64,000 nt of DNA, from contig WFMF01000328.1 of assembly GCA_011033025.1 (NCBI GenBank), positions 62,001 through 126,000 of the forward strand, given 5' to 3'. Each line of letters starts with the position of its first letter. The stretch's first letter is position 1. The notes under the pieces are model-generated. The model was given only the letters and a program-made list of their open reading frames with translations. It made no database searches and was not told where the DNA came from. Positions 3,001-52,345 of the stretch are shown here, in pieces. The translations under genes were made by a program, and so were the position numbers. Origin of the DNA: Beroe forskalii (taxonomy: Eukaryota; Ctenophora; Nuda; Beroida; Beroidae).

Positions 3001-6000
3001 GTTGCGGTTGTCATGTGATAGTGGACACCTATACGCTGACGACACGTCCTGTCAGGTGGTCGGATCACGTGACATCACGTGACAGCATCACGTGATGTCT
3101 CACCGCTGAGAGTACACCTTGTTTTTCCCTCATCCCCTCTTCCCTTCCCGTTATCTGTGTAACATTTGAGTAGTTTCCTGCCTCAGTGTATATATGTCTG
3201 ATTAGGTCCCTCTGCTTTACATCGTGTGTCAATTTTCAGACGGCATTCTATGTTAATTAGGCAACTTTTCAGCATTAAAGCCTGATTTCCTGTTAATTTG
3301 GTTTCATGTCGATGTTCTATCGTTTGTGAAGTTGCTTTAAGTCTTAATTTTATTGAGCAAATTACTATTTTCCTTAGTTCTGTCCCATAAGTTCATATTT
3401 GCTACTCTGTACTGTTCTGGACATTGTTGCGTGACTGTATAATAATCCTTTGAGAAAGATTTCTTTATGATTTGAACAACTTTGAGAAAATCAATATAAT
3501 GAAGAATAGACAAAGTATGTTTAATGATTCGGTCTACTTTTTGTCAGTTTAATGGATATTAAATATTGGTAAATTAATAGTTGACCAGTTCAAATTATAA
3601 ATACACAAAACAATGAAACAATCAATGCTGCGGCATAGCGGTATTGTCAAGTCGCCGTTGTCAAATTTAATGTACTTTTGAAGGTAGATAGATAGTTGTA
3701 TCTGTATTAAAAATTTCTCGAGTCCTTTCTCGAATTCAAATTATTTATCTGCAAAAGCCGACAAAAGTCAAGATATAAATAACGCACATTTATAGTCAAA
3801 ATTCATTTTGTTTTGGAACATTTATTTGATATGGTACATGTAAGATCACTTTCGTTAGATGAACGCGATGGGTCATCGCATCCGGATGTGTTTGATTAAT
3901 TCTTCACCAAAAGTGTAAATAGCTGGGTATTTCGCAATTATTTTCAATTCAAATTACTTCCCTATCCCATGTATCTCTCAACTCACATACTGACCACTGA
4001 TAACAACAATTTTACCTTAAATGTCGCCCTCTCTCTCTCCAATGTCTGCGTTACTGCTGCCGATCTGTTGCACACACACATATGCTTTATTATTGTAACC
4101 TCGTCTCAAACAAAAACAGACGTCATTTACCTTGTTACGTTCCGCCCTGCAGTTGAAGCACCATCTCTCTGCTCACTAATTACACTGCGTTGTGATTGTA
4201 GTGGAGTTCTTTGATACGCGTCAGGGAGCCGAACACTCCGCTCTCGGGTTAGAGAATGTGTGTACCTTTGTGGCTGGTTTCACCTGCTAAGCGCTAGCGG
4301 GATGTTAGGGGTTGCAGGGACATGTTTATAAAGGTTCGAAGACGGGTTACAGGGGAGGGGTTGCAAGGACGGGTTCACATCTAGGTTCAAAGACAGGTTG
4401 CAGGGGAGGGGTTTTATTAAGGGACTTGCTCATCAAGGTTCAAGGAGAAAGGTTATGCTGGCTTAAAATTGCCTGGTTTCTTCGCTGATATGACTTTAGG
4501 AAAAAACTGATTACCACTGAGGTTCTGTCATTGGAAAGTTATTTCAAAATAAACAATTGACATTTCACATTGAAAAATAAGGGTATTAGAAAAAATTCAA
4601 AGGTTTTGAAGAAAGGAAAAATGGCAAATAGTTTCTCCTATTGATACCTATTTGCACGCATGATTTCATTGCTTGCCGAACTGTTTCATTGTTAACGCGT
4701 GAGGTTTTACAACAATTATAAAGCTGTTTATTTATGTTATTAGCAAAATCCTCTAACTTTTGAGACTCATCCGATTATAGATACCCTGGTATTTTTCGCA
4801 GCTGTTTAAAGACCATTTTAAGACTTGGTTTCAATCTTTCATGGGAAAATCTTACGTTTTATAACTTAAACTGTTTTTGTGTAACTTGAAGTTGCTTATT
4901 TACTTATCTACGTTTATCGACTTCAATGTTTTTGAAATCTTGTTTGTTGTTGCAATATTTAATTTATTTTTGCTGCATGGCTATACCAAGAACAAATTGT
5001 AATTCTGTCTGTCTGGTTTTTGTGGAAGCCGAGTTGTCTGTTCGCAAGCCTGTCTGTCTGTTTTCTCTGGTTTCATCGAACATGCAGGTACCAGGTACCT
5101 CTCTCAGTTACTTTTTCTTTGAAACTTTTGCGATGGCGCACATAATTACCGCCAAACAAACGCATAAACATAGACGCACAACCTTCTCACCTGAAAAACA
5201 CAGTGGACTCTCAAATCTACCAACCCAAAACGCACCATCCTCCACACGCATCAACCCAAAACTGAAAACGCACGATCACGCACCTCAAGCACTCACACAC
5301 ACCCAAAAAGGAAACAATCGCCGCACTTCAGCACTCGCTGCAGGGGGCGCGCACACAAACACACTTCCACCCTGGGCGGCACACATTAGCATGATTTGGC
5401 GGTGTCTAGCGGGCTGCACTCTGATGTTTTGCATATATCCTTGTGCTCATCATAGTGTCACGCTGTCAGTGTAGCCTTATAACGCTGAATAGCTTTCTAT
5501 CACGGCATCAGCTCTTAATTATTTCAGTCTTTCCGCATGTCCTGTTAATTGGATTTGAAATGCAGCTTTTTATGGCGCTTTCTTTGGTTAATACTGGGAT
5601 TTTGTCATCTGTTGATCATGTTTTTCCTCCCTTACCTACTGCTTTTTATTCTTCCTAATTTAAGTTCGCATCAACTGACCCATGGTTATGATAATAGAGG
5701 CAATGAGGCAGTTACTGAATAGCGTCTACATTTCTTTAAGTTTATTCTTCTTGTAGGCATGTAGTACACGTTGTGTTTGTGAACGAAGTTTCATCACTCT
5801 TTGATAATGATAATCCATTATAATAAGCCTTCTCCACCATTGTTATTGTTGTTCTCATATTGACGGCATCATTTGTGTAATAAATCAAAGACCTTACCCA
5901 CCGAATTCCGAGTAAGTCTCGGTCAATACTTATCAAGCTGCATAATTGTTCCATTTCAAGCAACTATGCGTTATTGCACGGTGCTGATCAACGTTCCTTG

Positions 6001-16640: not shown

Positions 16641-19600
16641 TCGCAGAAATTAAAGTTTCAATTTCCCTCAAACTCGCACGGTCAAATCACTGTCAAAGGG
16701 ACATGTGGCTGTTAGCTCATGCGGCTGCCATCATTCGCCGTCCGTAGGACGGGAACCGACTAGTGCAAATAATTCATGGAGGGAGCAAATGTGTATCTTT
16801 AAATCTTAATAAATATAATGGCTGGCACACTGAGTATCATAGAAATCTTTGTGATATAACAGTTTTATAAAATGTCAGATACTGCGTATAGAAGTAGGAT
16901 TATCAGCTGAAACAGCAAACACCGATCAGATTATTATCTACTGGATAAGAACATGATTAAAGCAGGATATAATATCTGATATATCTATTTCCTTTTATTA
17001 TTTCTTTGCCAAAGAGCCCTGAACTCTTCCCAACTTTCGCTTCTCCAACCCTCCCCAGTGTAGGTAGGGTTATGTAACGCACTTTTCATTGAAGGATAAT
17101 CTCCCATCTTTTGCCTGCTCTCCTCCTCTCCTCTCCTCCTCCTCCTCACAGTGTGGTACTAATCTCTTCCTCTCCTCGAGCGGTTGCGCCTGTTTAATGC
17201 TAATTTAATCTTCAGACGTCAAATTTGTCGGCAAATTTCAAAGCGAGTCAGTGTACAAGAACAGCCCAGACGCATATAATTTGACACTGTTTATGGCTAA
17301 TTTTATGATGTTTAGCGCTTGCCGCAACGTTTCGTTTTCAGTTTGAAAGTCCTGGTGTTTGTTCGGGTATGCGTTTGAGAGTTTGTTTAATGTCCGCAGC
17401 CTACGGAGGGTGACGTTTGACCGTTTGTGAAGGGTTGTTTGTGTCGGATAATTCCAGACGGCTACTTAAGCTTTTGCGAGGCTTCCCCATCAATTAAAGC
17501 ATTTAGCCAGACTTATCTGGCAATCTGGTTAAGCCGGTGGTTGATTGTTTCCCATGCCATGTTCTGCCTGTTTTGAGGCAAATGGTTCTGGCAACGAAAG
17601 AAAAAATAACCCTTGTCTTGTTTTATCATTCGATAATTGATCGTTTTCTCATCTGTTTCCATTTTATAATTAGCATATCTTAGTGAATATACATACTAAA
17701 AGAAACATTATCTTCGCTACGCTTCTGTGAACCCAGTACTTGTGAAGATCTTCTTTGTCAAAGCACCATGTGCCATGTCACTCAACAATGATCATAGTAG
17801 TAACCATAATAGGGCGACTTCGCTTTGTGGGCAAATTATCACCCTAAGCATTAGCTGCGCTTTTGGTGAGATGGTCTCAAAGGATATATAACAATATCGC
17901 AGAAAAATTTGCCCGATTTTCGTTTGAACAAATCAAAAGTTGTTGTCCTAGATACTTAGATAATAGAACTTCAAAGTCTGACACGTGCAAATTTCAGCCA
18001 AAGTTGTATTTTATTTAGCAATGCGATTATAAATCTGTCCGACATGCTATCAGCAAGGCAGATCCATCAATGGGATTCAGGGGTTATTTAAATGAACATG
18101 CACAAGTGATGGAAGACCGACATGATTTCCCCGAATTGATAGAAATTGAGAGGGAGAGAGCGCTAAATCACAACGACAATTTTGATGAACATACAAATAA
18201 TATTCACCCCTCGAAGTTGTATCAAATGGAATCTTTCAGCATTTCTTTGCCTCATGATATATTGACATTAGACATGTCTAAATAAATTGGGTGCTTTGAC
18301 CTTTATAACAGAGCTCATCCGAAAGAGTTGTTCAGGATCTTCAAACGCAGCAATGTGCTGGAACGCAGTTCCGACCGGTTCCCAGGCTTTACTCCGCTAT
18401 CCGAACTTTATTATATTCCGCTCATTGATTGGTGTTACTCTTGGTGTCAATTCTCTCATTGAGTTGTAATGAATCAATTTCGTTATATAATAACCTTGGG
18501 TTATACGGTTGTTAATATTTTATTAGTTGCATTATTTTGATATATATTAACTGATTCCCGACGGCGGCTGCACTTCTCTTACAGAGGTACTACTTGACTG
18601 CCCCACCCCCTTTACCACGATACTCTGCGTTATTTCAAAAATAATACTCAAACGGCTTGTGCTATCGCGACGGCGTCACATCATCTGAACGGGACCCCAC
18701 TCCCTCCCATGATGATTATTGAGCAATAAGCTTCGGCATTCCCATTTCATTCCGTTGCTGAGATTTGTGCGTGTTTTAAGTGCCTATATATTCCTGAGAT
18801 TGCTTCAAGTCGAACATTATTTGTTAAATGTGCGCTATACCTAATGGGAAGTCTAAGTAAATGCGCAGTTCTGACACTGACAGACTGCTTAAACATATTG
18901 AAACCAGAAAACCATCCCCTTAGGTACCTACCGACACACGCACGTGGGTGAGCGAGCGAGCATTCATTTCGTGGTTACTGGCCAATTCCAAACCCTGATT
19001 ATATTTTGCTGAGTCCCTACTGGGGATAACTATCTGACTTCATTCCTGTCCTCCTAATTATATAGCCCAGAAGTAGTTTGATTTTAATTATCTTGATCAA
19101 AATATCGTTTCAAATTGGATATTAACTCTGGAAATCGCGAATATAGGTGTTCTAAATGTCGATAGTCCGAATCCCCCTGCTGACTACTTAGCCTGATCTG
19201 CTGACCGCCTGCCTGCGCGTCCGTTTATCGCAGTTACCCCGTTATATTCACCTAGCCGCGTTTCATTTGACTTGGAAGCAATATAATATTGTGGACATGT
19301 ATTAATTAAGTAAGGTTAAATTTTAGAACCAGAAAGTTTGTTCCCTTAAATCCCTGAAATTTTCTAAATTATTTGTGTGTCGTGCGAGCTCGTCTGAAAG
19401 TCGTAGTAACGTTTAATTATAATTACAAGCGGAGTGTTTTTAATGGCTTTTTTCCTGAGCGGCGAGATCGTCTGATCTGATGATAATAATTCGGATGGGA
19501 ATTCATCATGTTATGTATACTACGCTGAGAATTTACTACTGCAGTGAGTTTTATAGGATCGGGTAATTGCAATCACCTGCGGGTTCTTTCACTGTCATGC

Positions 19601-20917
19601 TCGCTCCGCGGTCCAGCTGTTTTCAAAGCTTGGGACGGCTTGCAGCTCTCGTAATGTTCACTATTTCAAAACTTCGTGACATGTAATTTTCATGTTTTGG
19701 AGGAGATAATGAGGCATCATGGTTCCTTCCATTGTCCTCTCTCATTGATCACAGATAATTTCGACATAACCTATGACTGATTAAAAAAGATTTTTATGAT
19801 CCGACGATCATTTTCATTGAGAACATCCTATGAATTCCATTATTTTACTGAGAAATAACACTCCGTTTTTAAAACATAACGCCAAGAAACTGTTTTCTAC
19901 TCCTCATCTGTCTAGAAGCTGAGCTTCAAAGAGAGTAAGTGGCATCGGCACATGCCGATACACAACATAAGGGGATAGTTTCGCCCAACGAGGCGCGCTG
20001 GAAAGTGATAAAGGAGTCTGCTCTCGCTGATGGGGTTCGCATGTCTCATTACAGATTGTCGGGGTATTATAGCCTCTTTAGATCTCCACGAATGTCGCTA
20101 TGAACCGCCGTTACTCGGACCTTGGAACCCGGCATCACAGCTGTTTTAACGTCGCTACCGGACGCTTCGGCCAGTCGGAACACGTCGCTGTCTCTCCTTA
20201 ATTACATGTGTATGAGTCATTGCGTGTGTTTGTTTCTCAATCAACCTGTACACAACATTTCGCAATTCCTTTCGCAAGCCTGCTGCCTTTGAGAGGTGTC
20301 GGCATTATCATTATCTGTTAAATGTTTGTCGATCTGAAGTAGTGTAAGCAGCTTTATGTTCAACGTACATTATTAACATCAAAGAATATTTTAGACAAAT
20401 AGCGCTATGTGTATGTAATAACTCACGTATATTTATACTTTGTGTGTGATTCGTAAAGCTATAATAGTACTCAAGGAAAATGTTTCCTCGCGTTATCTTT
20501 TTTTCGGTTTTTCCGTTGTGTGATAGGCAGAAATCGCTGTGTTTTATAATTTTGAGATTTTCCAGTCTTTTGTTGAACATTTGATTGCTCAACGTCCCTC
20601 AATTTGGTCGAGTACACTCTGTAGTGAGTGTTGAGAGTTGAGACGCCTTTCTCAGTTTTCTTACTTCACCGTGTTTGATGTCACAGTTGCGATGTTAATT
20701 TTCCTGATTAGTGATTCTACTCAGTCTGTAATTTTTACATTCTGTATTTTTACTTCGTCATATTTTTGTTATTCCGTAAATTTCACCTTTGATCAGTTCA
20801 TCATTACGATATGGAAATATTTGTTGTTTGTAACTACTAGAAACTAGACAGTTGTTTCTCTTTATTGAATTGTAAGATTTATTTCGCCATGAAATCACCT
20901 CCTGTCTCCCCTTGTAG
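16641..20917. other. gene-free region upstream of the FLYWCH/GRAB gene
   Basis: I see no supportable exon. A polypyrimidine stretch (CTCCTCC-rich) lies at about 17,105-17,150. A CpG-richer stretch at about 20,090-20,200 could be regulatory. Open frames here are short and without recognisable motifs. Confidence 0.5.
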
Positions 20918-20931
20918 CTCTCAGTCAGCTC

Positions 20932-23900
20932 ATGATGGCTACAACACAGCACATCTTCGAGCTCCTCAACAAGCAGTCTCCTGACACCAAGCTCACTTCG
21001 GACCTGGTCAAGTACTTTGTGGACATCTTCGGCAGCCCCAAACCCCTGACTCCGGGACAGCTGGGGGCGGCAGCCTCCTGCACTCCCCTACCCCTGATGG
21101 GGCAAGTGGTGAAGGAGGAGGAGGTGGACGACGCTATCATGTCTTCCTCCTCCCCAGAAACCAGCCCTGCTCCTGCCAGGGAAGGAAGTCCCCGGTGTCT
21201 GGAGTTAGTCCCCCAAGAGTCAGTTCTCCCGGGGAGTCCCCCAAGGAGGAGTCTTCTCCCCATTCCTCATCCACCAACCACGGAACCAAGCAAGTGTTCG
21301 AGAAGCCGAGCATGGAGTGTGTGAAGTATGTGATGGGGAAGCGAGGCGGATGTCAGATTGTGTGGCAAGGACACCGCTACACTCGAGACAGGACCAGGAA
21401 CGACCAGACCTACTGGGCGTGTGTCCTGAAGAGGCCTCCCTACCGATGCAAAGGTCGCATTTCCACCAAGCGAAGCTTTGTGACGTCAGCAACGGCTCAC
21501 AACCACACCCACCAGACCTCCAAGAGCCAGACCGCCCGGCTGATCCACCAACTGAAGCAGAAAGTGAGGGGTTCCTGCACTGAGGCTGAGGCTCCTGATA
21601 TCGTCCTGAGCTGTCTGCAGGAGTTCAAGTTCAACGAGGCTTCTCTCAACGAGGAACTCCCCTCCTACGACACGCTGGTGAAGATGTGCAAGAGAATCGT
21701 GAAGAACAAGAAGAAGAGTGAAGACGAGATGTTAACTGGGGAGTCCTGTTCCCAGAGTCTACTGAATGGCTACTCTGCTACCCAGCTGGACTACCTGCTG
21801 AACCCTAACGCTGTGCTCCACATGGACTTTGACAACTGCGACACTTCCAGGAAGTCCCTGACAGAGATGGGGAACCCCATCCTCTCCCTGGCACACCTAC
21901 CTCACAAGATGGACACCAGTGAGGACCTGGTCAGACGGCACAGTCTCACAGCAGCAGGACTCGGAATGAGAAGTCCTCTGGTGCCAAGTCAGCTGAGTGT
22001 CCCTCCTGCTTCTGGCTTCCTCAACGGACTCCTCCCACCCAACCTCCCCTCAAGTCTGCCACCCATCTCCTCTAACCTGCCCCCCAACATACCTTCCAGC
22101 TCCAGTTTCTCTGACAGTTACACCATGGTTCCTATAACCAACCTGCTCTCCCAGACCAGTCCCTTCTCCACCCCGACCATCAGATCCAGTACTGGGAGTG
22201 CCTTCACCAGCACTACCTCTTCCACTCCTCTCCTCCCTACCACTCCCCTCCTTCCCACAACCTCCCTCCTCCCCACTTCCTCCTCCTCTCTCAAGATCCC
22301 ATCCTCCTCCACTGTGGGTGGGATGACTTCAGAAGAGAAGACCGTCTTCTCCACCCCCTCCGCTGGACTGACTCCCTCAAACGCAGCAGTCACCTCCCTG
22401 GCCCCCGGAGCCAGGCCACATCACGAGGCATTGCTGGAGAGGGGCGTCTCCTCCATATCAGAAGTCAGAGCCTATCTGGACGACATAGAGAATCTATACA
22501 GGGTAAGCAATCACAGGGCCACTTATTCAGAATTCTAGCTTTATTCTAGCTTTGTATTCACATTTCCCAATGGGACTTGCAAGACCCAAATGTCTTCAGT
22601 TTTGAAATGATACATAACGGGAGGTGCTTCCTGTCTCCATTATTCTAAATCTCTGCCGCTTGAGAAATAGATGATGTAACTGAAGTGCTCTCGCTATCCG
22701 AAATGGGAAACAGGCCGTTCATAACCCAAGCAGTCCTAATTTAGTAGTCTAGGACATTTCATCGTGGGGCAGGAAATCGAAAGAGATTCGTGATCAGACT
22801 GATTTAATTTCACCGTAAATTATCTCGAATGCTTAACTCTTCTTTCCCACACATTTCCTACTTGGAAAGTTAATTCCGGGGGGTAATACCGAATATATAA
22901 TTTCACTCGGCAGTATCTCACAAATATTAATTCCATAAGCACCTCACTATTATATAAACCATGTATTAAATCAAGCGCGTCTCACGTTCTCATCCGGAAC
23001 ACATATATTATAATCTCACTTCCGGCGTTTAATTCCCATGATATATATTGCTAGAACACTTCGTTCTGTGAACTGTCGCTACGGCGAGAGAATTATTCGA
23101 TCCAATTCACGAGATTAAACGGGTGAGCGCTGCTCAGCAAAGAGAATATATTATATTGGTTACCGAAACTTTCGTCTCTCCGAGTTCTCCATTTCATTCA
23201 CTGTTTAGCACATGTGTCGAATTGAAGCATTAATAGCCACCCCTGCGTAATATATACTTGACAAGTCAGACTTTTCGCTCCATCTAATGCTTGAGTCTCT
23301 CGTAAAATGGCTGGTTCAGCGTCACCAATCAATCCCCACTCTCTCACTGGTTTACCTTCGGAGAGTTAGCATTGCAGTTAACTAGGGGCATATTGGTCAG
23401 TACGAGGTACCGATTTAGCGAAACTAAGCTGGAAATTGGGTAATGCTAAATCGTTAGTTCAACTGTCAGAGGGGCTATAAGGAGTTTCAACTTTATCAAA
23501 TTCATTAAATACTCTGTTGAGAGCTGAACCAGAATGTTCACTTTCCCGGTAATCCGGTATCGTAATGTCGTGGAACAGGGAACTTGGTGAGAATCAGTTC
23601 ATCTAATATTGGCGAGACATAATCACTTCATTCGGAGTAGTTATTCCAGTCAAAGCAGGACTTCAATTTAATATTTCCCATGGCACCAATTTTACAGAGC
23701 CAATTGAAATTGAAATTTAAGTTTAATCATAGTACAGTAATGTATTCATTATGCGCTCGTTTCAGGCTAGGATATCAGAAATGAAGCTGATTGAAGAGGA
23801 TTTCAAGACTTGCAAAGATGACTCTAGGAGCAAGGATGATAGGATACAGTGTCTTCAACGCGAGGTAAGGATCTATCAATTGTTCAAAACTTGAATAAAT

Positions 23901-26900
23901 ACACATTAGCTTGTGTGTTATAATCATCTGAATCCGTCATTAATTGAATCTTATAAGTTGTTTTTCGTGTAAAATGTGTTTTCCGAGTAAAATGTTTCCC
24001 TGTAAGTTTTAAACGATATGACACCCACAATTTAGCGTATAATCTGGTTTTTGTTGAGACACACAACTTACATTCCCTGTAACGACATCCTACGATCCGT
24101 GACGCGTAAAATAGAGCCCCCTTGTACCTCGTTCCACTGCTGCTATATTTCGTTGTTTATTATTTTATAAGTATTATAATAATGCAGTTTGTACACCGAA
24201 AGTTACGTGTACGTCATGACGTCATTATCATGGTTTAGAATGGGGAATTGTCGCCCCGACCATCGACCGGAGTATACACAATGCACCAGCTGCCAGTTAC
24301 AAAGATCATGCCGCTTTTGCGAAACAAAACAACTCTCTCCGGGACCCTCGAATAGAGCTCGCTATTGATGAGTTACACAAGAATGAAGTGTCGTAGTAGC
24401 TTTCCCACGTACAACCAGGGTTACAAGTTGATTGGAGATTGTAAGGGTGATAAAGTGCTTTGTTTGGTGCCTGAAGGCTGCCTGACAGCCAAAATACTGT
24501 TCAAGTTCGGTAGAAATGTTATCAGTGGGACATAGCAAGGGTGTGAAGATAGACCAGTCTGTGTACTCAACAATAGCGAGTTTTTGTGGTTTCTGATGGC
24601 TTAACGGGGCTCTAAATCCAGCGTGAGATTGTGTGAACATCATCACTGCAGAATGTAAATTACATCCTTTATATATCCAATTACAACCTGTTGATTAGTA
24701 TACCCTGGAACCTTAATAACTCCTGGACCTCAATCAGGCATCTCTGGACTGTGATTACTTCGGATTTGAGTAGTAAACTATTATAATAATAATGATAAGC
24801 CGAGTTTCCCATGTCTGGATCTCTGCAATGTGACAATTGGTTATTGCCGAGTTGGTGTGGTGCGTTTCGACACTGAAGCCTTAATAGATGTGCCGATATT
24901 GAGCGTTTAATCGCCATGAGATAGGTATTCCACTGAAAGTGCGCTCTTATTGGCCACTGACGCGTCGAAAGCAGGATTTAAGGCAGCATTTGGTCCTCTT
25001 TCCACTTCACAATTCTCCTTCCTCCTCCCTTGTTAAAGAGTTAATTATCGTCTCCTACGCAAGTCTATTTCACATCTCATCATGACTCTCCTCCTCCACC
25101 ACTAGAGGTTATCATTTACATATATACCTCGTGTCCAGGTGTCCAAGTTGGATGTTGCTCTCAAGGTCGCGCAGGAGGGACTCCAGAAAGTTCGGTGCAC
25201 TTCGGAGGACAAAGTGGAGCGCTCCCTGATGAAGACGTTCTTCACCCAGTACATCACAGCTCCGGGTAACTCGATAATTGCACCCCAACAATATCATTAT
25301 TATTATTCTCTTCCCTATTATCAACTCATTCGCCTCATAATATGTTGCGTTGTAATAATATATTATGTTAATTATTAATTAAACCGAATGTCTTCGCTTA
25401 TTTATTAATGAATCCACTCTCCTCAAATGAATCCAGCCTTTGCTTGCATGTAAATTTCCTCCATCAAGTCCTAGCCCCCCGTCTCCAGCCCCCTGGCTTT
25501 GTGCTTTGTTCACTGCTCTCCGTTTAATCACGGGTAACGAGACGAAGCAAAAACCAAGAATAGTTAACAGTGTTTTATCGTGAGAAGGATGTTTTCAAAA
25601 AAGGGCGTTTTATTGTAGGAAGGATATTTTCAAAAAAAAGCAAGCCCACTTATGTGTTGAAGTTGTTCTTAAAAATATTCATCAATATATCGAAAAAGCT
25701 TGAACACTGCAGAATAATGATAGTAAAATTCGACCATTTCAAATTCTCATAATTCGACAACTTATTATTGTAAGCAATTTGTATTCATACTTCCATTGGC
25801 CGAAAAAATATAAAGTAAACATGAAGAAAACTTTAACAGACTGATCTCATTGCATGATAAAATCGTCGAATTTCTCATTAGAATTCATTAATATTTTATT
25901 AAAATAATCGAAACATTTTTCCAACCTTTGCAGAATTTCTGAATTTCTGCGTTTTCACTGAGAACTCGGCCTTCCTCAAAGACGATACTCTCTCTCCTGC
26001 CGATATCATCTGGCATAAACACTTCGCACAAGGGTGGTAAATCATGATAACCATCCTAAATTTCTTCCGTCAAAATTCACCATGCTATGCAAATCATGGT
26101 GATTTGCAAGTTGTACTAATTGCGAAACAGTTAATGCCAATTTGTCGAGGAAGGACAGCCTTTGAATGGCCGACCAGACAGCCTCGCGCTTTGTTTGCGC
26201 CTCTTTGTGTCTAGCGAGCTCGTGGGCTTTGAATTCGGCGTCGCATTAAAGCGGTGGATCCCGAGCCACTTACCCGCTTACCTGATTATAATGGCGTCTG
26301 GTACAGCAGGTGGTTCTCTTGCCTGCCTCCCTGGAAGAGGAGGAGGAGGTAGGAGGAGGGAAGGGTCCCGTGGTAGATAAACAGCTGGCCTTACACCACT
26401 ACCGCGCTCGGCTAGACAAATCGCTTTGTTTGTGTGTCCGCCTGAGAGTCTCTGTATGTCTGGAGGGAGTTTATCGTGGCACCTGGTCCCCCCAGGGATT
26501 CCCGAGTTTTTCTCACCTGTACAGACATATGATTTTGTTTCTCCTCAAACAACGCTCTAAACAAGGTTTTGAAGCACGGCTTTTGTAAACATGGTTCTTT
26601 CATCTCAACGTAAATAAAGGGTTATTCCCTTTTGAACTTTCAAATGTAAAGAAACATTCGAGAATTAACCTGAAGCCATCTGTTAGCTATTTTTGAAGGT
26701 AAACAATGAAATCAACATAAATTTTTTCCTGAATAAGGATTGTGATGTCAAGTTTTGTTAGCTTCATAGCCCCTCCTTAAGACCTAAGACGTCAGAGAAT
26801 AAATGAATCTTTAGAGAATGAGTCTTTCAAAACATTTATATTTGCCTATTTGACCACCAACTCTCAGTACAAACCCCTGTGTACCCTCTATTTGTAACTA

Positions 26901-29900
26901 TCTAGCTCCTTGCCCAATAAACAATTAACAAACAATAATTTCCCTCCCAACTTGCTCCTATTTCCCTCTCACTTGCCCATCCTACCCCCACTAATCCCTC
27001 CTTACCCCTTCCCACCTGCCCCCCTTACCCCTTCCCACTCCTCCCTTCTAACCCCTCCCCACTTTCCCTCCTAACCCCTTCCCACCTGTCCCTCCTAGCC
27101 CCTTCCCACTCCTCCCTCCTAACCCCTTCCCACCTGTCCCTCCTAACCCCTGCCCCTCCTAGCCCCTTCACACTTTCCCTCCTAACCCCTTCCCACCTGT
27201 CCCTCCTAGCCCTTCCCACCTACCCCTCCTAACCCCTTTCCACTCGAACCTCCTAACCCCTTCCCACCTGCCCCTCCTAACCGCTCGCTCCCTCCTAACC
27301 CCTCGCTCCCTCCTAACCCCTCTCCTCCTCAGACAACAGGAAGCCGGAAGTGCTACGTCTCATGACCTCCATCCTCAACTACTCTGATGAGGAAGTGGCA
27401 GCCCTCCACCGGACTCGGGATAAGAAGTGGCTGAACGGCATCTTCCCGCCCCCCGCTGCCGGGGGCGCCGCCCCCACTGCAGATCTAGCTACCGGACAGG
27501 TAAGAGAGTAGGGAGGTTTTATTATCCCGGATATTAACTATTCAAGTATAGGGAAGCATATTTCGTTTTAATTAAGAGTTAATATTCTAAGGGTAATGTC
27601 GATTATTGTTCGTTAATAAAGCTCACTAGGAATACTGGAATTACAAACAGGCCTTTGTGATTGGAGAGTTATTTAGGGCTCGAGAATTAACAACAGAGCC
27701 CTACTAATTATACCATTCAACTCATTCACCTGTGATTGAGTGGTGTATAGTAATAAATTATACCAAGCATATAATAGTAGAAGTCCTGAACTCCTTAAGT
27801 CGCAACTTGTCAAGAGTAATCAATCATTCCTATTGCTCTAATCTCCCCATCTAACACTCTAACAGTGGCTGGTAATTGGTTGTCATAAATAACAGCGTTC
27901 AAATGGGGGAGGGGCTCCCTGGTTCCCACAATGTGTCAGGCCCCTAATTGGTCAGTTTGTCCTGCGATACTATTGGTCCGAGTATTACGCCGAGTTTTAA
28001 AGAGCTAGGGATCTAATGAACGCCTGGGAAGAAATGAGTAAGGCTCATTGCTCCCTAATCTCTGAGTACCTTGGTATCTTTCATCCTAAGCTCAGTGGGA
28101 AAGGCAGGGAATCGAACCCGGGATTTTTCGATCACGAGCCAATTGCTGCCTAACCTCTGAGTACCACGAAGATCGTAAATGTTCACTAAAATAGTGGCTT
28201 CCAAATTTCCTCTCAAAAATTTAGCATTTGTCAAATCTGAAAAACTTTTACCTTTTTTTTCATTAATAGCATGACTCTAGCCATAAAACGATTCAGTAAA
28301 TTATTGATTCTCAGGTCTCATGAGTATTGAGTAAAGGTCTTTTTGATATAGCTCCTCCTTCTTTTTCCTGAGAAAGACAAGTGTGAAACAGACAATGTTT
28401 TTCGGCTTCTTATCTAGTACAAGAATTATCATGACCCGGTGGGTGGTATAAATTAAAGACTTATGAAAATTCTCGACAGCACCAGAACCGAATTTCAGGG
28501 AGCGGTACAGGGTTCCTTTCCAACTTGTAGCTCTTAATTTCAGAATTAAAAACTTTGCGATAAGATGATCCTTTCAGCATGACAATTTGAAATTTAATTG
28601 CAAATATTTAATTGCCTGAAAATGCCTCTACCGCTAGGAAGTGAGGGTTATTCTTTAGACTCTGACGGCCGTCTCGTACACAGAGTCGCTGCATTTCCAT
28701 TGAGATTCCCGAAGATTACATTCGAGTTTTTGCTGGACTCAGAGCACACACACCCTTTGATGAAATGTCGTCAGCAATCACATGTTTAATGACACAGCAC
28801 TTCAGTGAATTATTAATATTACGTATATATTGACCCCGTGTCCGCTCCTGATACATGTGCGCCAAAACTCATTGTTAATTCTAGTTGTTAGCGGCTGAGG
28901 TCTTTGAACTGTGAACGCAGTTCGGTCTGCTGTATAGTGATAGCGCGGCCATTGATTGTTCTCTCACACGCTCCTCTTAATGCAGCAGTTGCCGCGGTAC
29001 CGGTACTGGTGCATGACAGTAACCTCTCCCCGGGATCCCAGACTCACCAGGCTCCCAGACTCCCTATACACACCGCTTGTTGTAAACCCCCCTGTTTGAG
29101 GCGCATATCACTCAAACTTGTTATACCCCTTTATATTACCCTTTATATTACCAGACTCCCTCTACGCACCGATTGTTGTACCCCCCTGTTTGAGGAGGCA
29201 TATCACCCAAACTTGTAATATACCCCCTTTATACCAGAGGACGCGTTATAAAGGAATCCTCTGTAATTGTATCGGCAATTCACCGGGGAGCCTTAGAAAG
29301 TTTGTAGTTTTTTGGGGGGGTAATTGGCTCGATAATAAGTTCGGCTGTACTGATTGGATCTTTCAAGATTAATACCACTTTAATATGCCGTACCAGAGTT
29401 CAGAAATCATAGTTTTCCATCAATTGCACCCCCATCAACACTCAATGTAACGAGTAATGTAGTGTGTATTTTCTCTAACTCCCTTATCCCTCAGAGTTTC
29501 TCAGAGCTCTTCGTGTCCTTCCTGGAGACAGAAGCTAACCGTGGTTCGGTAATGGGGTCGCGCCCCCTCCCTTCACCGCCCCCTCTCCGACCGAGTGCAG
29601 GCAACCCCCCGCCCAGCTCTCACCAAAGGAGCCCCTCCGCCGCCTCCTTCCATCAGAGATCCCCCTCGTCCACCTCCACCGCTTCCACCCACTCACTACC
29701 AGGTCAGTTGGTTGCTCTTAGAGGGGTGGTAAACTAGAGTGTTAAACAAGTCTTAGTAGAGTGGTAAGCTAGCCTCAAAGCAGTGGTAAACTAGTCTTAG
29801 AAGGGCTGTACACTGGTCTTTTAGGGGCGGTAAGGTATTCATGTAGGAGTGGTAAACAAGTCTTAGGGGAGTGGTAAAATACCTTTGAAAAGTGGTCAAC

Positions 29901-32357
29901 TAGTCTTAGAGGAATGGTACCAGTCTTTGAGGAGCAGTAAGCTAGCGTTTGTGGAGTGGTAAGCTAGTCTCAAAGAAGAGGTAAAATAGTCTTAGAGAAG
30001 TTATTAGAGTCACAGAACAAGTTACAGTAAACTGATTCCCGGAAATTTATTTTTCTGTTGGGAAATTTAGTTTGTTTGGAAATGAATGTAATGGCTAAAT
30101 AGCATTATTCTAGTTCGTCTTGACGACTGCTCAAAATAACTTGAACTGTATTCAAAATAATTTGTATTTAAGTGTAAAGGTTGCGCTCCAATGACATCAG
30201 TTCTCAATAAATCGCTGAGTAATGCTTGATTCGTTGACAAAGCTTTGTTTAGATAAGGGCAAGGATTCTAGAAAAAGCTTCTTTAAAAACTAAGCGCACA
30301 AATTCCTGTCTCGGTGATGTAACAGTAATTTTTCTTCCCGCTCTTACACCCGAATAAAAATAATAATAGCCTTGCCACGTGTCACCATGATTTAGGGTAC
30401 AAATTTTCAGATTTTCACCCAGGACTTTGTTTCAACTCCTCGGTATTATAAAATAAGTTCTCATGTTTACAGTTCGTTAATTTTGTGTTCCACCAAATTA
30501 TTTCTCCATTACTTTGTCGCAATATGTTGCATCAGCGATATTTTCTACCAGACACTTGAACATTTGATGATAAGGTGCGAAAGCATGTTTATGTGTTTGT
30601 ATGCCGCCACCAGTTACAGATAAAAGTTGTTTGTATGCCGCCACAATTTACAGATAAAAATTAAAACATCTCAATCGCCATAATTAAGGGGTTTCTTATT
30701 TAAACCAATACAATTATTAGCTTTAAATTAAGGGTTTCATTACATGAATTAGTAACTAATTATTTTGTATGTTATACAAGATTCAAGGCCTGATTATTGA
30801 CTGAACTAAAGTATGTTCTCCACTTGTCGTATCATGTTTATCAATCACAATACTTATAAGCTCGTTCTGTTAGTGTTATCTTGACATGGCAAATCAATTT
30901 GCAAATTGCAATCGCGCCTTGAATTTCAAAGAGTGAGCTCATGGTTTTTAATTATACAAAGAACAAGCCCATTGAGCGAGTACCACTTTATGTCACCGGT
31001 TCGTTAAAGCGTGGTTATACTGCTCGGGAAGGAGTGACAAAAGATGGATAAAACATGATACTGCGATACCTTCATCTTAGGAACTCAATCTCAACTTTCG
31101 TTTGTTTGTCACACAAAATCAAAATTCTGCTAATCGCCAATTTTCCCTTCAAGGGGCCACCGCTTCTCCTACAAAGCACTTAGAAAGGACTCAAAGTCAA
31201 CATTGAAAGTTTAAAAACTCCATTGTTCTTGGCAACTATTCTCTCTCTCTCAATCTTTGACGTATGTTTAAAGAGTAGAAACTGTATAATATGATGACCG
31301 GTGGAGGGTTGTTAAGGTTTATATGCCGTCAAACAACTGTAACCCGGTGACGTGGTCTCTCTATTTGACGGCATCATTAACACACACACACCGCGGCATT
31401 GTTTACACATTGGTATTAACGTGGAGTTAGGGGTTACTAATCCTGACTGCTGGTACAGCCAATCTCTCAGCGTTCTAGCAACCACTGCGCAAGCATTTCA
31501 CCCTTTCTCAGCGTTCGTAGCAACCACTGCGCAAGCATTTCACCCTTTCTCAGCGCTGTAGCAACCACTGCGCAAGCATTTCACCCTTTCTCAGCGCTGT
31601 AGCAACCACTGCGCAAGCATTTCACCCTTTTAACCTTTAATCAATCCCCGGGAATTCCCCGTAAATTGACATTAAAATGGTTTCAGCCTCGCTGAACAAA
31701 GAGGGAAGCAGTAGTTCCAGCAGTGGGCAGCCGTCAGACATCGGCCCTCAACCGGACCCCTCCACACCGCTGCCAGGTATAGAGATGATTAGGTGAAGTG
31801 GTTCCCCACTCCGTGCCCCACTCCCCCTCTCCCCCTCTAGGTGTCACTAATTCATCAGCCCCCTCTTAACCGCTCCACTGAAACACCCGAATCATGTTAA
31901 TAAGTATATATATAAATTTGTATATATCAAATAATATATTATCAAACCGTCGGCTTCCCTTTGCTTCGAGACAAAGCTTTGAGTTCCAAGATAATAACTT
32001 TTGACAAAATATTGCGATATATTTACGGGATTGGTTTGTGTTTGTGAATTGCCGACACACACGGAATTTCATCGGTCCGTCCAATGGGATGCCGGGAGTG
32101 TGATCACGAGACCCGGGCAGCCAATCAGCGCACAGCTAGCAAATCACGAGGTGTCCACACAGGAGAGGACTGACCGTACACAAGCCGTGTGTCAGATTGG
32201 GTCGGTCTCCCTCTCTCTCTGTGTGAGCCCTGTGTGACTCAGCAAACAGCGCGGTTTACACTGATTCGTTTCAGGGGCTCCCGGCCTGCCTCTCCATGTC
32301 TCTCCGCTAGTGGTGCCTGCCTCCCTTGCAGACTTGCTGTCCAACAAGCCGCGGTGA
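20932..32357 (+). CDS. FLYWCH zinc-finger / GMAP-210-like GRAB-domain protein, seven coding exons
   Basis: Exons and phases fit together: 20932-22502, 23766-23864, 25139-25265, 27333-27499, 29495-29702, 31687-31776 and 32275-32357 (stop TGA). Each is bounded by AG and GT, giving about 780 residues. Exon 1 encodes a FLYWCH zinc finger: TYWAC, then YRCKGR, then AHNH supply the Cys-Cys-His-His ligands. A helical segment of the kind that follows FLYWCH in MULE-type transposase relatives comes next, then a long Ser/Pro/Thr-rich linker. Exons 2-3 look coiled coil. Exons 3-5 match the C-terminus of GMAP-210/TRIP11: PEVLRLMTSIL, then SFSELFVSFLETE, ending near ASLADLLSNKPR. In that golgin this region (GRAB) binds Arf1-GTP at cis-Golgi membranes. 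The usual TRIP11 N-terminus (lipid-sensing helix, very long coiled coil) is absent from the window. The start ATG at 20932 follows a 3' splice site at 20917, so a 5' UTR exon lies upstream. Exon 1 needs a frame change near 21,180 (separate entry). GRAB identity is firm by eye; the fusion is inferred from splice phase. Confidence 0.75.
21165..21195 (+). other. frame break inside exon 1
   Basis: The N-terminal frame starting at 20932 (MMATTQHIFELL) is open to 21,324. The zinc finger, however, lies in another frame that is open from about 20,985. The composition switches smoothly near 21,180: SPETSPAPA in the first frame is followed naturally by RKSPVSGVSPPR in the second. One missing base in the run of G at about 21,179-21,181 would join them. 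A consensus error is the simplest reading; a true mutation or an alternative downstream start is possible. The site does not fit a standard -1 slippery heptamer. Confidence 0.6.
26950..27330 (+). repeat. C-rich intronic minisatellite abutting a 3' splice site
   Basis: About 370 bp built from variants of CCTCCTAACCCCTTCCCACC run directly into the acceptor CTCCTCCTCAG at 27,332. The repeat therefore acts as a greatly extended polypyrimidine tract upstream of the exon encoding the GRAB core. C-runs of this density could also form i-motifs, or G-quadruplexes on the other strand. Confidence 0.8.
28040..28172 (-). mobile_element. tRNA-derived SINE fragment
   Basis: Read on the minus strand, 28,150-28,165 gives GGTACTCAGAGGTTAG, an RNA polymerase III A-box-like sequence. 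About 40 bp on comes GGGTTCGATTCC, a near-perfect B box. A second partial copy of the A-box segment follows at about 28,040-28,070. The arrangement fits a tRNA-derived SINE head rather than a functional tRNA, since no full cloverleaf with an acceptor stem is evident. It lies in an intron of the FLYWCH/GRAB gene. Confidence 0.5.
29703..30005 (+). repeat. degenerate intronic repeat with GTAAAC/GTAAGC cores
   Basis: Starting at the donor of exon 5, about ten degenerate 25-30-bp units share the pattern GTGGTAAACTAGTCTTAGAG. Each carries a GTAAAC, GTAAGC or similar 5'-splice-site-like core. It is intronic and has no coding potential. Confidence 0.65.
31455..31630 (+). repeat. ~40-bp minisatellite, four copies
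   Basis: Four near-identical tandem copies of a unit containing AGCAACCACTGCGCAAGC and TTTCACCCTTTCTCAGCG lie about 60 bp upstream of the acceptor of the exon at 31687. The pyrimidine-rich portion could influence splicing of that exon. Confidence 0.8.
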
Positions 32358-36022: not shown

Positions 36023-38215
36023 CTAATCGTCGAGTTCAGAGTCAGAACTGAACTCCTCTTGTCTCAGGTTTCTCTGGATTTTCACTGATTTCTTCTCCTC
36101 AACATGCTCCACAGGCGGTCTAGTGAGGTCACCTGCAAAGTGAGATGATCAGTTAACTGTGAGTGAAATAAATTTCATGTCCATAATGAAATAATCCGTA
36201 CAGTGTAACGTTCTATGCATCAGTTGACGAGTGATGACAAGCCCCCTCCTACTCCGACCACGCCTTCCTTGACGAGCAGCCCCTCCTACTCCTACCACAC
36301 CTTCCTTGACGACTGATGACCAGCCCCTCCTACCACGCCTTTCTTGACGAGTGATGACAAGACCCTCCTACTATGCCTTCCTTGACGAGTGATGACTAGC
36401 CCCTCCTACTCCCACCTCACCTTCCTTGACGAGTGATGACCAGCCCCTCCTAATCCTACCACGCCTTCCTTGACGAGTGATGACTAGCCCCTCCCACTCC
36501 TACCACGCCCCCCTACTTCACGCCTTCCCTGACAGTTCACGTACCCGAATAATTGATGATCTTGTTCTGAGCTATTCTCCATTCCAGCAGAGATGTTGGG
36601 AAGTTATCGGTACTTCCAAGATCATCAAATCCAACCACCCTGTCAATGACGGAATATCGTAACAGAATTAATATAAATGATTGGTATTTTGATATGACCA
36701 CAATCAAGAAGTCACTCTCCGCAGAAATTGGGGAAATACACACAAAAGGAGGCAACGGGCAAAATCGCGCACACTGCACAATTCGTGTTCTTTGTTATTT
36801 TATCGAAACACCCCTACGATGAAATCATACTTTTTTTATTTCGAAGTCTATTTTAAAATAAACTCCCCCTTTCGATTTTCGAACCCTGTGATGCATATAG
36901 CATACCTGTCAATAACGACGGAGTCTTTGCACATGAGAATAGTTGGCATAACTTTAATCTTAAGTCTTTCAGAAAGGAATGGCGCTTTCTCGGCATTCAG
37001 TCTGATAAACCGTGTCTCGTAGTGCTTGAGACACAGCTGACTGAGATGCTTGTCAACAATCTTACACCTGAAATGAAATGTAATGTAACATGGATATTAC
37101 ATGATAGAGACGAGCGTTCTCTAACGTATTTCTGATGCAGTACATGTACAATTGTACAATGCAAATTGTAGTGTTGTTCATGAAACGAATTTAAACAAAT
37201 CCTAATGGATTCAAATGGATCGTGAACATTGCATTGAAGGGATACAAATGCAATTGTCTATGTAAAAGAGGCAGACATCTCCACATTACCTGAAGCTAGT
37301 GTCTACGTAGAAGAGCCAGACAACCTTACTCAACCCCATCTTACCTGAAGCTAGTGTCTATGTGGAAGAAACAACAGCTCCATCTAACCTGAAGCTGGTG
37401 TCTATGTAGAAGAGGCAGACAGCTCCATCTTACCTGAAGCTAGTGTCTATGTAGAAGAGGCAGACAGCTCCATCTTACCTGAAGCTAGTGTCTATGTAGA
37501 AGAGACAGACAGCTCCATCTTACCTGAAGCTAGTGTCTATGTAGAAGAGACAGACAGCTCCATCTTACCTGAAGCTAGTGTCTATGTAGAAGAGACAGAC
37601 AACCCTGTCACTCTTCTTGCCGATCTCGAAGAACTCTTTTTCGTTGGTGATAGTGTCGTACGTTCCGTGACCCAGATTCTTATACTCCTGCTTCTGATCC
37701 TGGGAGAAGTATTGTCAGTCACGTACGAATTAAAGAAGTCACGTACGAATAATGATTGTGGAAAAGATGAGAAATCTGACTGATAATTGGGATAATATCC
37801 TAAACATGGTAACTTGAACATGAAGTATGGGCTTGCAACAAGCTGCAAAAACTGAACACTGGAAAGGTTCCACTAAGTTCATTAGTAAAGAGAGAAAGCT
37901 GCAGTTCTGACCTGGAGTTTCTGCATTTGTTTGATACGGCGCTCTCTAATGGCTTCTAAATCATCCTCGTCCATCTTCTCTAGCTTCTCCAGCTCCTGTA
38001 GATCAGATTCAAATATGGATATAATCATTTAAGTTTCAATATACATTTGATTGTGCAAATTTCAATATACAATGCACAATAATGTACAATGTACAATGTA
38101 CAATAAACCATGTACAATGCATACTTACAGCGTCAACTGTAGCCTCCATGGCCTCCACAGCCCCAGCCACCATCTTGTTTATCATTTCCTGCTGCATTGC
38201 ACCACCAGCGGCCAT
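36023..38215 (-). CDS. TXNDC9: thioredoxin domain-containing protein 9, copy 1 (intact)
   Basis: Six exons, all with correct phases: 38215-38129, 37995-37912, 37699-37569, 37067-36906, 36639-36545 and 36132-36023 (TAG), giving 222 residues; the human protein is about 226. TXNDC9 is a phosducin-like, thioredoxin-fold protein that acts with the CCT/TRiC chaperonin in actin and tubulin folding. Family marks seen: acidic N-terminal helix with MDEDDLEAIRERR, GHGTYDTI, FYIDTSFRCKIVDKHL with the single Cys in place of a CxxC pair, LNAEKAPFL, the cis-Pro strand KVMPTI, VVGFDDLGSTDNFPT, LEWRIAQ, and an acidic tail SSDSELDD. The start is the MAAGGAMQQEM methionine. Intron 3 holds a 45-bp splice-donor minisatellite and intron 5 a 44-bp minisatellite. 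The 3' end of the intron before exon 5 resembles the end of exon 4. The gene lies downstream of NUP93 on the same strand and convergent with the FLYWCH/GRAB gene. Confidence 0.92.
36215..36535. repeat. 44-bp minisatellite in TXNDC9 intron 5, unit 1
   Basis: Seven to eight degenerate copies of the repeat containing GACGAGTGATGACCAGCCCC and CTACCACGCCTTCCTT. The homologous intron in unit 2 (about 49,305-49,385) has only one to two copies. The array is therefore ancestral to the duplication and has changed copy number since. Confidence 0.85.
37285..37615 (-). repeat. 45-bp minisatellite made of an exon end plus its splice donor, unit 1
   Basis: On the minus strand the end of TXNDC9 exon 3 and its donor (CTAGCTTCAG|GTAAGATGG) is repeated about seven times with a 45-bp period. 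Examples of the TACCT landmark lie at 37,476 and 37,521. Each unit starts with GTAAGATGGAG, passes through a CTGTCTGTCTCTTCT pyrimidine tract and ends in CTTCAG, so every junction is a juxtaposed acceptor and donor. The exon-proximal copy gives the real exon end at 37,569. The leftmost copies are degenerate. Confidence 0.85.
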
Positions 38216-38863
38216 TTCTAGATCTACATACGAGGTGGGAAAATGAAAGGGGTAAATATCAACACGATATCTTATTCGTCATGGAAGACGCTTTAGAATT
38301 CTCTGTATTCACGAAATAAATATATAACTGCATCAGTGTAATTTTGATCTTGAAATTAGTTATTCAAAATACGAAATACGAATCGTACTTCACGTGGATG
38401 AGAGTAAAGATTATCAAACAAAAGAAGATAAGTCCAGACCATAGAAATTTATTAAATAAACAAAATAATTAGATTCGGGTAATTTGTGGATTAACTAATT
38501 CAAATAACATGAAATGTCATGAAATAGGTATTGTAATTGAAACTGGGACTAGGAATAGAATTCATTTTCAATCTCTTAAAATATTACATCAAGGGTAATA
38601 TATAACCACAATTAAAAATATCTTGTAAAGAAATTTGTTTAGAAATTCAATATTGAATGAAGTCATTTTGTTATCTAAAATTTAAAAAGTAGTAAGAACC
38701 TCCAACATAGTGTATGCCCAAATCATGATTCATTGCAATATAACGTGGGAAAAAGTAGCCGTTTTCAATATCAATAAGGCTCCATTTATTCTCTTTATGG
38801 GCATAGCAAACTCAACTTAAATAGGATATAAATATTTCAGGTGTATTCAATGAATGTCAATAT

Positions 38864-41224
38864 TCAATATCTCATAGGAGCATCGAGCATACTCAGCTGT
38901 GCATGCGTGTCTCCTGGCATGCTGTAAGGCAGCATCCCAGCAAACCGCATTACGACTTTAGCTTGGTCCCTGATTTTTTGGCTGTGCTTATTCTGAGCGC
39001 CATACAAATTGCTCCCAGCCTTACTTGCATTTTTGTAGAGTTTATTGAGTATCGACATAACCATGATAAGTAGATCTGGAATGCATCTTCGGAGCTCATC
39101 ACTGAATGACTTGAACGCATTAACTCGATGGTTTATGGTTTCTTGTTGAAGTGGAATTATCTGCAGTCTATTGATCACATCTAATGCTTCCTCCAACTTT
39201 TCATTTCCACTGTGATACAGAGCGTGGAATTGATAGAGGTCGAGAGAAGGAGGAATTGCTTTTCGAAGGTTTGCATTAGCATGTTGCAACCTTGTCTCCA
39301 CCCCTGATGCTATTTCATGTATATGCTCATGGGCTTTGTCATTGGGCATCAATTTCTGTGACAATTCTTCATTGAGAATCTCCAAAACCTTGTCATAATT
39401 GTGTGCCAGCTCATAAAGGGTGACAGCTTCTTCCCAACATCCTCGCTTTTCAGATGCTTCAGCCACTGTTGAAATAATCAATGAGTGATTCACATTGTAC
39501 CTATCAATGGCACCCTTTGTCTTCCGACCTGATGAGTCAAGTGTGCCGAGGAGTGTTTGGTATTCTTTGCTCTCTTGTATTAACTCTGAAATGCATACAG
39601 CAAACATGTCCTCCCCATCTTCATTCTGTATTCCATGGAGGATGTAGTAGTAATTCAGAGCACTTGAGGGGTTCGAACAAGCAAACTTTCTAGTGTATCC
39701 AATGACAATCCTGCAGAGATTGAGTCTTTTATGAGGGCTGGATCATCCCTGCATTCACTTAGAATTGGTTGGTGGGGAGTGACTGATAGATTTATCATGC
39801 CATTAGAATGCAAAGCCAAAGCCATGTGGATAGCATTAATTCGACTTTCTTCTCCTCTGTAAAGAACTTCAATGGCTGACCCATAGAGACCAGTGAGTAA
39901 CAAAACAAGGGGCATAAAGATATGGACTTTGCAGAGTTGAAATGGTTTTCACCATATTCCTGCAAAACATGTTCTTGAACCTCAAATAGTGTGACTTTAT
40001 CCTGTTTGATCTGGAAGTCTTTCCTGTTGAACTACTAGGTAAGAACATGTACCAGCTTTCAACTGAATATAATCTTGCACCAGTTGTCAAAATATCCCAT
40101 GCCTCCGCCTCAATATCACACCCACCCAGGATAGAAAATACTAGACGCTTGTAGGGGGTCATTGCAGCTGTTACACCTAAGACAAAGCATACTTTATCAC
40201 GAGCCCCAAATGTTGATTCTCCAGAATCAGCTCAATCCTCCTCATAACCATCATCTTGGAGAGCTTGCAAAGCAGCAGCAGGTGAACCACACCTAAGACA
40301 AACATACACAAGGCCCCAAACTGTTGATTCCTGAGTCCTCACAGAGAGATAACTTGAAGCAAGCTCCATGATGCCAGGAATTCCACCCAACTCTGCTTGT
40401 TCAAGATGCCCACTAATTGTTGTCTGGACAAACTGTTGGAATCCCCTCTCTAGATACTCAACAGACTTCTTAACCAAATCTAAAGTGTTGCTGTGTTTGA
40501 AACGAAGAGCTGGGTCATCAAAACAACTACTGTTAGCAAGCACTTCAACAAGTTCCCAGCAATCAAGGATAGCTTTGCTTTCTCCAAACTCATGAATTGT
40601 ATTCATGAATTCGTCAATCAGGGGATATCTGCGTCATAAGCCAACAGCATCATTCCTGCGACTGATAACTTCAGAAAATGATATCATCTTGAGTCATAAC
40701 AGAATCTTTACTCCAATAAGTGCTATTGACAGACAAAGGTTGTATATCAACTGGTACATGAAAATCTGTTCTGGTGGAACCAAGAAGAGCAGACAAGACC
40801 CTTTCCTTTTCTTCTTCCCATAAGTGCTGTAATGCTTGACTATGGCGTAGAGATGCTGACTTCATTGTGCTACTCTTGCTCTCTATGATTGCACCCAACA
40901 AGGCTTGTTCTCTTTCACCCTTCAGAAATCCTTGAATGTCAGTGACTGGAGATACTTCAGTTGGTTCAATGGTTGTAGACTTCAGGGGTTTCCATCTTTG
41001 GAGACATGGAGGGGACATCAAATCCACGGGATCCTAACAAAAATTGAAGCCTTAACATCAGCACTATCATCTGTTGCCATAGCTGCAGTCTTCATCCATA
41101 ATCGTTCACCTGCTTCAGCAATTTGGCCAAGGTTTCTATGGACCCTTGGCAGGGCTGTGACATTAGCAGTATCAGCATTTAGTTGCTCAGCACTTTGCAA
41201 TAATCCTGCAAAGCTCACAGACAT
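38864..41224 (-). pseudogene. NUP93: nucleoporin 93, copy 1 (frameshifted)
   Basis: The reading frame is homologous throughout to the intact copy at 52346-54730, but it is broken by at least five frame changes. Examples are an extra A in the run near 41,039, losses near 40,680 and 40,630, a rearranged stretch at about 40,150-40,240 that removes some 35 codons, and a dense cluster of 1-base indels at 39,890-40,110. The final 240 or so codons are open, with two compensating indels near 39,240-39,260. Most differences from copy 2 are single-base gains or losses in short homopolymers rather than substitutions. That pattern fits unpolished long-read sequence at least as well as decay. The start ATG is preceded by a good 3' splice site (CCCTTTTCAG), implying a 5' UTR intron. 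Confidence 0.85.
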
Positions 41225-51727: not shown

Positions 51728-52345
51728 TTCTAGATCTACATTCGAGGTAAATATCAACACGATATATCTTATTTGTCAATAAAGACGCTTTTAAGTTCAC
51801 TGTATTTACGAAATAGATTTTTAACTGCATCAGTAAATTTGATCTAGATTAGGTATTCAAAATACGATTCGTACTTACTTCACGTAGATGAGAGTAACTA
51901 TTGTCAAACAAAAGAAGATAAGTCTAGACCATAGAAATTTATTAAATAAACAAAATCATTAGATTCGGGTTATTAGTGGATTAACTAATTCTAATAACAT
52001 GAAATGTCATGAAATAGGTATTGGAATTGTATCTCGGACGAGGAATAGAATTCATTTTCAATCTCTTAAAATATTACATCAAGGGTAATATATAACCACA
52101 ATTAAAAATATCTTGTAAAGAAATTTGTTTAGAAATTCAATATTGAATGAAGTCATTTTGTTATCTAAAATTTAAACATGGGTTTATGTCGAAATCATGA
52201 TTCATTGCAATATAACGTGGGAAAAAGCAGCCGTTATAGGGAGTCTTCAATATCAATAAGGCTAAATTAATTCTCTATAAGGGGATATCACACTCAACTT
52301 AAATAGGATATAAATATTTCAAGTGAATTCAATAAATGTCAATAT

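Follow-up and report, generated by a model that had tools for sequence, protein, structure and literature searches.

In the ctenophore Beroe forskalii, a complete FLYWCH zinc finger and the exons of a GRAB domain lie on the same strand of contig WFMF01000328.1 (C390 in our genome searches). The GRAB exons most likely form the 3' end of a full-length GMAP-210/TRIP11 gene, and a putative 31.4-kb intron of that gene contains the FLYWCH unit. For the FLYWCH exon itself, a role as an alternative first exon is slightly favoured, from which a short FLYWCH-coiled-coil-GRAB isoform would be made beside the normal golgin. At most, the FLYWCH-GRAB architecture would represent a single isoform from an otherwise normal golgin gene, and such an isoform is plausible.

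The analysed window comprised 64,000 bases (C390:62001-126000); negative coordinates refer to the contig upstream of it. Domains, their order and strand, the strength and phase of splice sites and the copy number were read from the DNA itself. Splice sites were scored with rough matrices of our own, and coding potential with an equally home-made, rough codon model that was partly trained on these exons. The features are listed below, with a slash at exon-intron borders.

-7760..-7657 (C390:54240-54343), + strand: last detected coiled-coil exon; donor CAG/gtgggt, phase 0, score 4.5
20918..20931, + strand: putative 5' UTR with which the FLYWCH exon would begin, next to acceptor ccttgtag/CTC
20932..21123, + strand: putative N-terminal coding stretch MMATTQHIFELLNKQ..., frame 1; picked as an exon by the gene finder
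21180..22502, + strand: FLYWCH exon body with FLYWCH, subsequent helices, Ser/Pro-rich stretch and C-terminal helix; donor AGG/gtaagc, phase 0
21327..21506 (C390:83327-83506 in the genome search), + strand: FLYWCH zinc finger; Pfam match to residues 115-174 of the 20985 frame
23766-23864, + strand: coiled-coil exon that would serve as the common junction exon; phase 0 at both ends, acceptor 2.8, donor 4.9
25139-25265, + strand: end of the coiled coil and first GRAB half (KVERSLMKTFFTQYITAP); in-phase GT-AG exon, GRAB match
27333-27499, + strand: second GRAB half (NRKPEVLRLMTSIL...); in-phase GT-AG exon, GRAB match
29495-29702, + strand: SFSELFVSFLETE exon; in-phase GT-AG exon
31687-31776, + strand: Ser-rich linker exon (exon 6); in phase, weak acceptor of -2.4 by the rough matrix
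32275-32357, + strand: terminal coding exon ending in ...PLVVPASLADLLSNKPR and a stop; in-phase GT-AG exon with DLL end

Domain content and start of the FLYWCH exon

The initial annotation had assigned a FLYWCH finger with Cys-Cys-His-His ligands to the first exon, and this assignment held. A Pfam scan of the open frame 20985-22538 matched PF04500 over its full length (profile positions 1-62 of 62), with E 5.8e-11 and a score of 42.8 bits, well above the Pfam cut-off of 23.6. The four ligands were identified by eye. Helices were also predicted, at low confidence, in the segment 3' of FLYWCH that had been described as helical. The single-sequence AlphaFold model of the exon was poor overall (mean pLDDT 44), and its best-scored part was a C-terminal helix that reaches donor 22502 with a pLDDT of about 80. 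Throughout the exon body, the frame 0 coding score persisted up to this donor.

The start of the exon was less regular. Acceptor 20918 scored 2.7, the best value in 20600-20960. The putative N-terminal coding stretch contains ATGATGG, where A stands at -3 and G at +4 of the second ATG. ATG 20932 lies in frame 1 (open from 20893 to 21324), whereas FLYWCH lies in frame 0. Because the two frames differ, the passage from one to the other requires an additional intron or an indel in the assembly, unless translation begins only at ATG 21309, which is in frame with FLYWCH and sits just 5' of it. The candidate for an extra intron, chosen by the gene finder, was 21124-21179, with a weak donor of 0.7 and an acceptor of 4.3. 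In the codon-model window scan, the lead was mostly with frame 1 from 20901 onward and with frame 0 from 21201 onward. In the windows lying between, both frames scored positive, with frame 0 slightly ahead at 21021. The earlier statement that all seven exons join in phase held for donor 22502 and the six downstream exons; with ATG 20932 as the start, it calls for the extra intron or the indel.

The GRAB exons and a probable golgin gene upstream

Each of the six downstream exons is bordered by GT-AG introns, and all of them join in phase, with coordinates slightly corrected from those first proposed. The joined tail matched Pfam GRAB with E 1.6e-5 and 25.0 bits, just below the curated cut-off of 26, a near-threshold match in line with the GRAB assignment previously made for these exons. 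The match scored 25.4 bits in the golgin join and 22.5 bits with FLYWCH joined on, against the same cut-off. The peptide SFSELFVSFLETE resembles what we take to be an SFSELF-type motif following GRAB in GMAP-210, and the DLL end is presumably GMAP-210-like as well. A solved-structure search with the tail gave six weak matches, none of them meaningful (best E 0.28).

A coiled-coil scan, run without a shuffled control, covered the 60 kb upstream on the contig and yielded 26 entries on the + strand, some of them overlapping, between -26570 and -7743. Six minus-strand entries were found in the same span, and no + strand entry was found in window positions 1-20900. By eye, the N-terminus MSESGGYSGWLGGYAKSVAGSVSAFTQDILEE at about -26615 precedes the coiled-coil series on the same strand. 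It resembles the GMAP-210 N-terminus as judged by eye, with the tryptophan at residue 10 and not at the extreme N-terminus. The donor of this N-terminal exon was not found, and Pfam assigned no family to it. One source describes the GMAP-210 N-terminus as carrying the conserved motif M-S-W-L/F together with an ALPS segment (PMC5267433), and another reports that no ALPS-type helix was found in non-vertebrate GMAP210 (PMC5840792).

The direct join of -7657 to 23766 is in phase and reads ...ATEAEITKLQ/ARISEMKLIEEDF.... A rough gene finder linked the upstream coiled-coil exons and the GRAB exons in one chain, which includes doubtful exons, such as those from -25313 to -24243 and those at 2039 and 6448 in the window. 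A long coiled coil before GRAB is present in the upstream series; the FLYWCH isoform itself would keep only about 80 residues of it. In protein searches of the genome, all six matches to the six tail exons lay at this locus, and both matches to the last two coiled-coil exons lay on this contig, with C390:54240-54343 among them. The upstream coiled-coil series, the phase-0 join and a tail for which no second copy was found indicate that the GRAB exons are most likely part of a full-length GMAP-210-like gene. A separate full-length TRIP11 had been proposed as a check. The tail search revealed no second copy, and the GMAP-210-like series emerged upstream on the contig itself. The stretch is therefore probably not a self-contained seven-exon gene, since the GMAP-210-like gene would start on the same strand some 47 kb before the FLYWCH exon and end in the GRAB exons.

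A profile search for GRAB across the genome was a weak test for a second GRAB gene because it also missed the GRAB domain of the window, presumably owing to the intron that interrupts it. Its one weak hit, on contig C691, was rejected. It scored 20.5 bits, below the cut-off, and contained one internal stop, and one of 14 control genomes also matched below the cut-off. It was treated as a chance match because, by eye, it lies inside retroelement-like sequence on the other strand.

Relatives and origin of the FLYWCH unit

A Pfam-family search of the genome (216 Mb, 1134 contigs) located FLYWCH in at least 65 places, including that of the window. A protein search found 22 other places at E 0.01 or better, all inside residues 9-141 of 408 and with 27-40% identity. 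Comparison with 47 of the 64 other loci gave matches at E <0.001 for 17, only in FLYWCH and the subsequent helical part. At the DNA level, the FLYWCH exon was present as one copy, and the preceding 2 kb were likewise single. Repeats of at least 16 bases, inverted ones included, were absent from 19500-24500, and no transposon ends were seen there. Given the single copy and the lack of such repeats, the FLYWCH unit does not look like a recent transposon, and the suggestion that a transposon-derived exon was captured found no support as a recent event. Pfam detected no transposase family in the FLYWCH frame. A solved-structure search with FLYWCH and the helices gave two weak matches without meaning, the better one to 2rpr with E 0.43. 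Among viral contigs, 119 pattern matches included no relatives. Descent of FLYWCH from Mutator transposases and an expansion of FLYWCH in ctenophores are reported in PMC10027918.

Some other FLYWCH loci of the genome were inspected by eye. Four (L002, L003, L007 and L008) carry FLYWCH in transposase-like frames, those of L002, L003 and L007 being nearly alike, and were regarded as signs of FLYWCH elements in the genome. A second FLYWCH finger, within a short Ser/Pro-rich frame, is located on the minus strand of the same contig (L004, C390:163552-166761).

Further features of the window

Two Nup93/Nic96 copies were detected on the minus strand at 38761-41033 and 52243-54751, about 13.5 kb apart. 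One copy is read without interruption as an 801-aa open frame (PF04097, 3.7e-134) and the other is broken across several frames, with one piece of 292 aa (1.6e-66). One 300-base stretch of the two copies was aligned and showed 95% identity. The peptide SILPEASVYVEETDS, followed by a hydrophobic stretch, is repeated at 37388-37783 and 50926-51288, in each case next to a Nup93 copy and on the strand opposite to it; a Pfam scan of 50926-51285 gave no match. Four tandem copies of a 41-base unit with 96% matches occupy 31465-31630, directly 5' of exon 6. None of the six listed open frames of at least 100 aa before 20758 had a Pfam match at E 0.01, and Rfam gave no match in the window at gathering thresholds.

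The junction from 22502 to 23766 and competing explanations

Donor 22502 has phase 0 and a score of 3.8 and is the sole donor reaching this value in 21180-22540; 14 donors in 61.5 kb did so, true sites included. Acceptor 23766, also in phase 0 and in phase with this donor, is the only one above 1.5 in 22503-23800. The mean codon score was 0.23 in the 17 codons before the donor and -0.09 in the 11 codons from the donor to the stop, compared with -0.11 (SD 0.17) in intron windows and 0.28 (SD 0.16) in exon windows. The best heptad register is common to the final 20 residues encoded by the FLYWCH exon, to the 23766 exon and to the beginning of the exon after it, and the direct golgin junction (-7657/23766) has no shared register. 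Such sharing was equalled by 4.5% of 20,000 shuffles and by 16 of 378 windows. As strong evidence for the FLYWCH-GRAB junction, it was dropped on calibration: a register was common to both sides at only 10 of 28 neighbouring junctions of the same model, in which several exons are doubtful, counted after removal of the gene-finder exons between window positions 0 and 20000. With so few junctions sharing a register, the match adds little.

Since acceptor 23766 has the golgin coiled-coil exon as an in-phase partner, its existence is accounted for without FLYWCH. With this other partner available to the GRAB exons, FLYWCH would be no more than the start of one particular isoform. The frame that encodes FLYWCH ends 11 codons past the donor, at TAG 22536-22538, and a standalone protein is therefore possible. 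The FLYWCH unit would then be a nested gene of its own, with its protein ending at this TAG or in an undetected private exon and the GRAB exons used by GMAP-210 only. This nested arrangement, the main rival and in our view less likely than the alternative first exon, would be in line with the phase-0 partner that GMAP-210 offers to 23766 and with the gap from -7657 to 23766. At 31,422 bases, this putative intron far exceeds the other gaps of the exon list picked by eye (125-3,879), as expected had a unit settled inside. However, the nested gene leaves a strong phase-0 donor very near the stop, a coding score that drops at this donor, and no other good acceptor before 23766. A signal for a private last exon was not obtained either, as no window from 22521 to 23330 exceeded 0.07 in any + strand frame of the codon-model scan. 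AATAAA is absent from 22538-23765, which is weak evidence in 1.2 kb, and ATTAAA occurs at 22965, 23114 and 23504.

Inclusion of the FLYWCH exon in the golgin mRNA would place FLYWCH between the coiled coil and GRAB, giving either a long coiled-coil-FLYWCH-GRAB protein or a truncated golgin. Both borders of the exon might be usable, and a join of acceptor 20929 to the coiled-coil exon ending at -7657 keeps the phase. However, this acceptor scores only 0.2, and a further frame change would be required before FLYWCH. Of the higher-scoring acceptors, 20918 (2.7) runs into a stop after 5 codons and 20925 (0.8) after 19. As a cassette, the exon would mostly introduce a stop, so its inclusion is unlikely, and a golgin protein built in this way is quite improbable. 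Because joining acceptor 20918 to the golgin coiled coil gives a stop, the FLYWCH exon fits better as a first exon than as a cassette. Of the three options raised in the initial annotation, the alternative 5' exon of TRIP11 was the best supported. An assembly artefact or a misjoined contig that put FLYWCH beside GRAB is the least probable explanation and very hard to credit. The frame change within the FLYWCH exon may be a sign of an indel or of some local error, but coiled coil, FLYWCH and GRAB are ordered on one strand of a 199-kb contig, the window is free of N, and the FLYWCH exon with its preceding 2 kb occurs once.

Discussion

For the favoured alternative first exon, we infer promoter use, transcripts and function as follows. 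Transcripts from the golgin promoter would skip the FLYWCH exon and splice -7657 to 23766. Putative transcripts starting near 20.9 kb would splice 22502 to 23766 and encode a protein of FLYWCH, a Ser/Pro-rich stretch, a coiled coil and GRAB. The coiled coil would dimerise, and the protein would be recruited to the cis-Golgi in dependence on Arf1-GTP. A DNA-binding factor could in this way be kept outside the nucleus until Arf1 is inactivated. The normal Golgi tether and a short, Golgi-anchored zinc-finger protein may both come from one locus.

The locus resembles GMAP-210/TRIP11 (yeast Rud3) in its near-threshold GRAB match, the coiled coil before it, the SFSELF-type motif and DLL end, the upstream coiled-coil series and a putative WLGG-containing N-terminus on the same strand. 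It differs in the FLYWCH unit within the pre-GRAB intron and in a possible alternative N-terminus without the vesicle-capturing end. The products of CUX1/CASP have 5' coiled-coil exons in common. The two are reported to share a locus (title of Gillingham 2002). For the C. elegans counterpart ceh-44/cone-1, a Golgi protein and a DNA-binding homeodomain protein are described as products of one locus, made by alternative splicing (PMC11789633). The present locus would likewise give a Golgi protein and a putative DNA-binding protein. In CUX1/CASP the DNA-binding part is the other 3' end, whereas in the present locus it would lie at an alternative 5' end, and the exons in common would be those for the coiled coil and GRAB at the 3' side. 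Both the golgin and the DNA-binding domain differ.

A transposase-derived unit in a host intron that forms a fusion protein by alternative splicing is described for CSB-PGBD3 (PMC3459987). In that fusion the transposase is preceded by 5' exons of the host; the FLYWCH unit, which shows no transposon ends, would instead be followed by 3' exons of its host. With FLYWCH1 (2rpr, a weak match) and Mutator-type transposase relatives the unit shares a complete FLYWCH finger and a helical segment. Unlike the transposase relatives, it has no transposase family and a single copy, with only the FLYWCH end shared by the 22 other places. No paper in the literature collection searched mentions FLYWCH together with 'GRAB domain'. 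Judged by title, FLYWCH and golgin were co-mentioned only in mouse expression data, and none of the titles found for ctenophore and golgin concerned a FLYWCH-golgin pairing.

The chance is a little below even that a single-copy FLYWCH unit came to lie in the GMAP-210 intron ahead of GRAB and took over the last exons of that gene. The outcome would be a Golgi-anchored, Arf1-regulated DNA-binding protein and a mirror image of CUX1/CASP in which both the golgin and the DNA-binding domain are different. Provided that the junction is used, the locus would be a second, independently built golgin/DNA-binding locus that shares 3' and not 5' exons. It would then be testable whether a transcription factor can be retained at the Golgi by an Arf1-binding anchor, and in what way a domain of transposase origin captures the 3' exons of its host.
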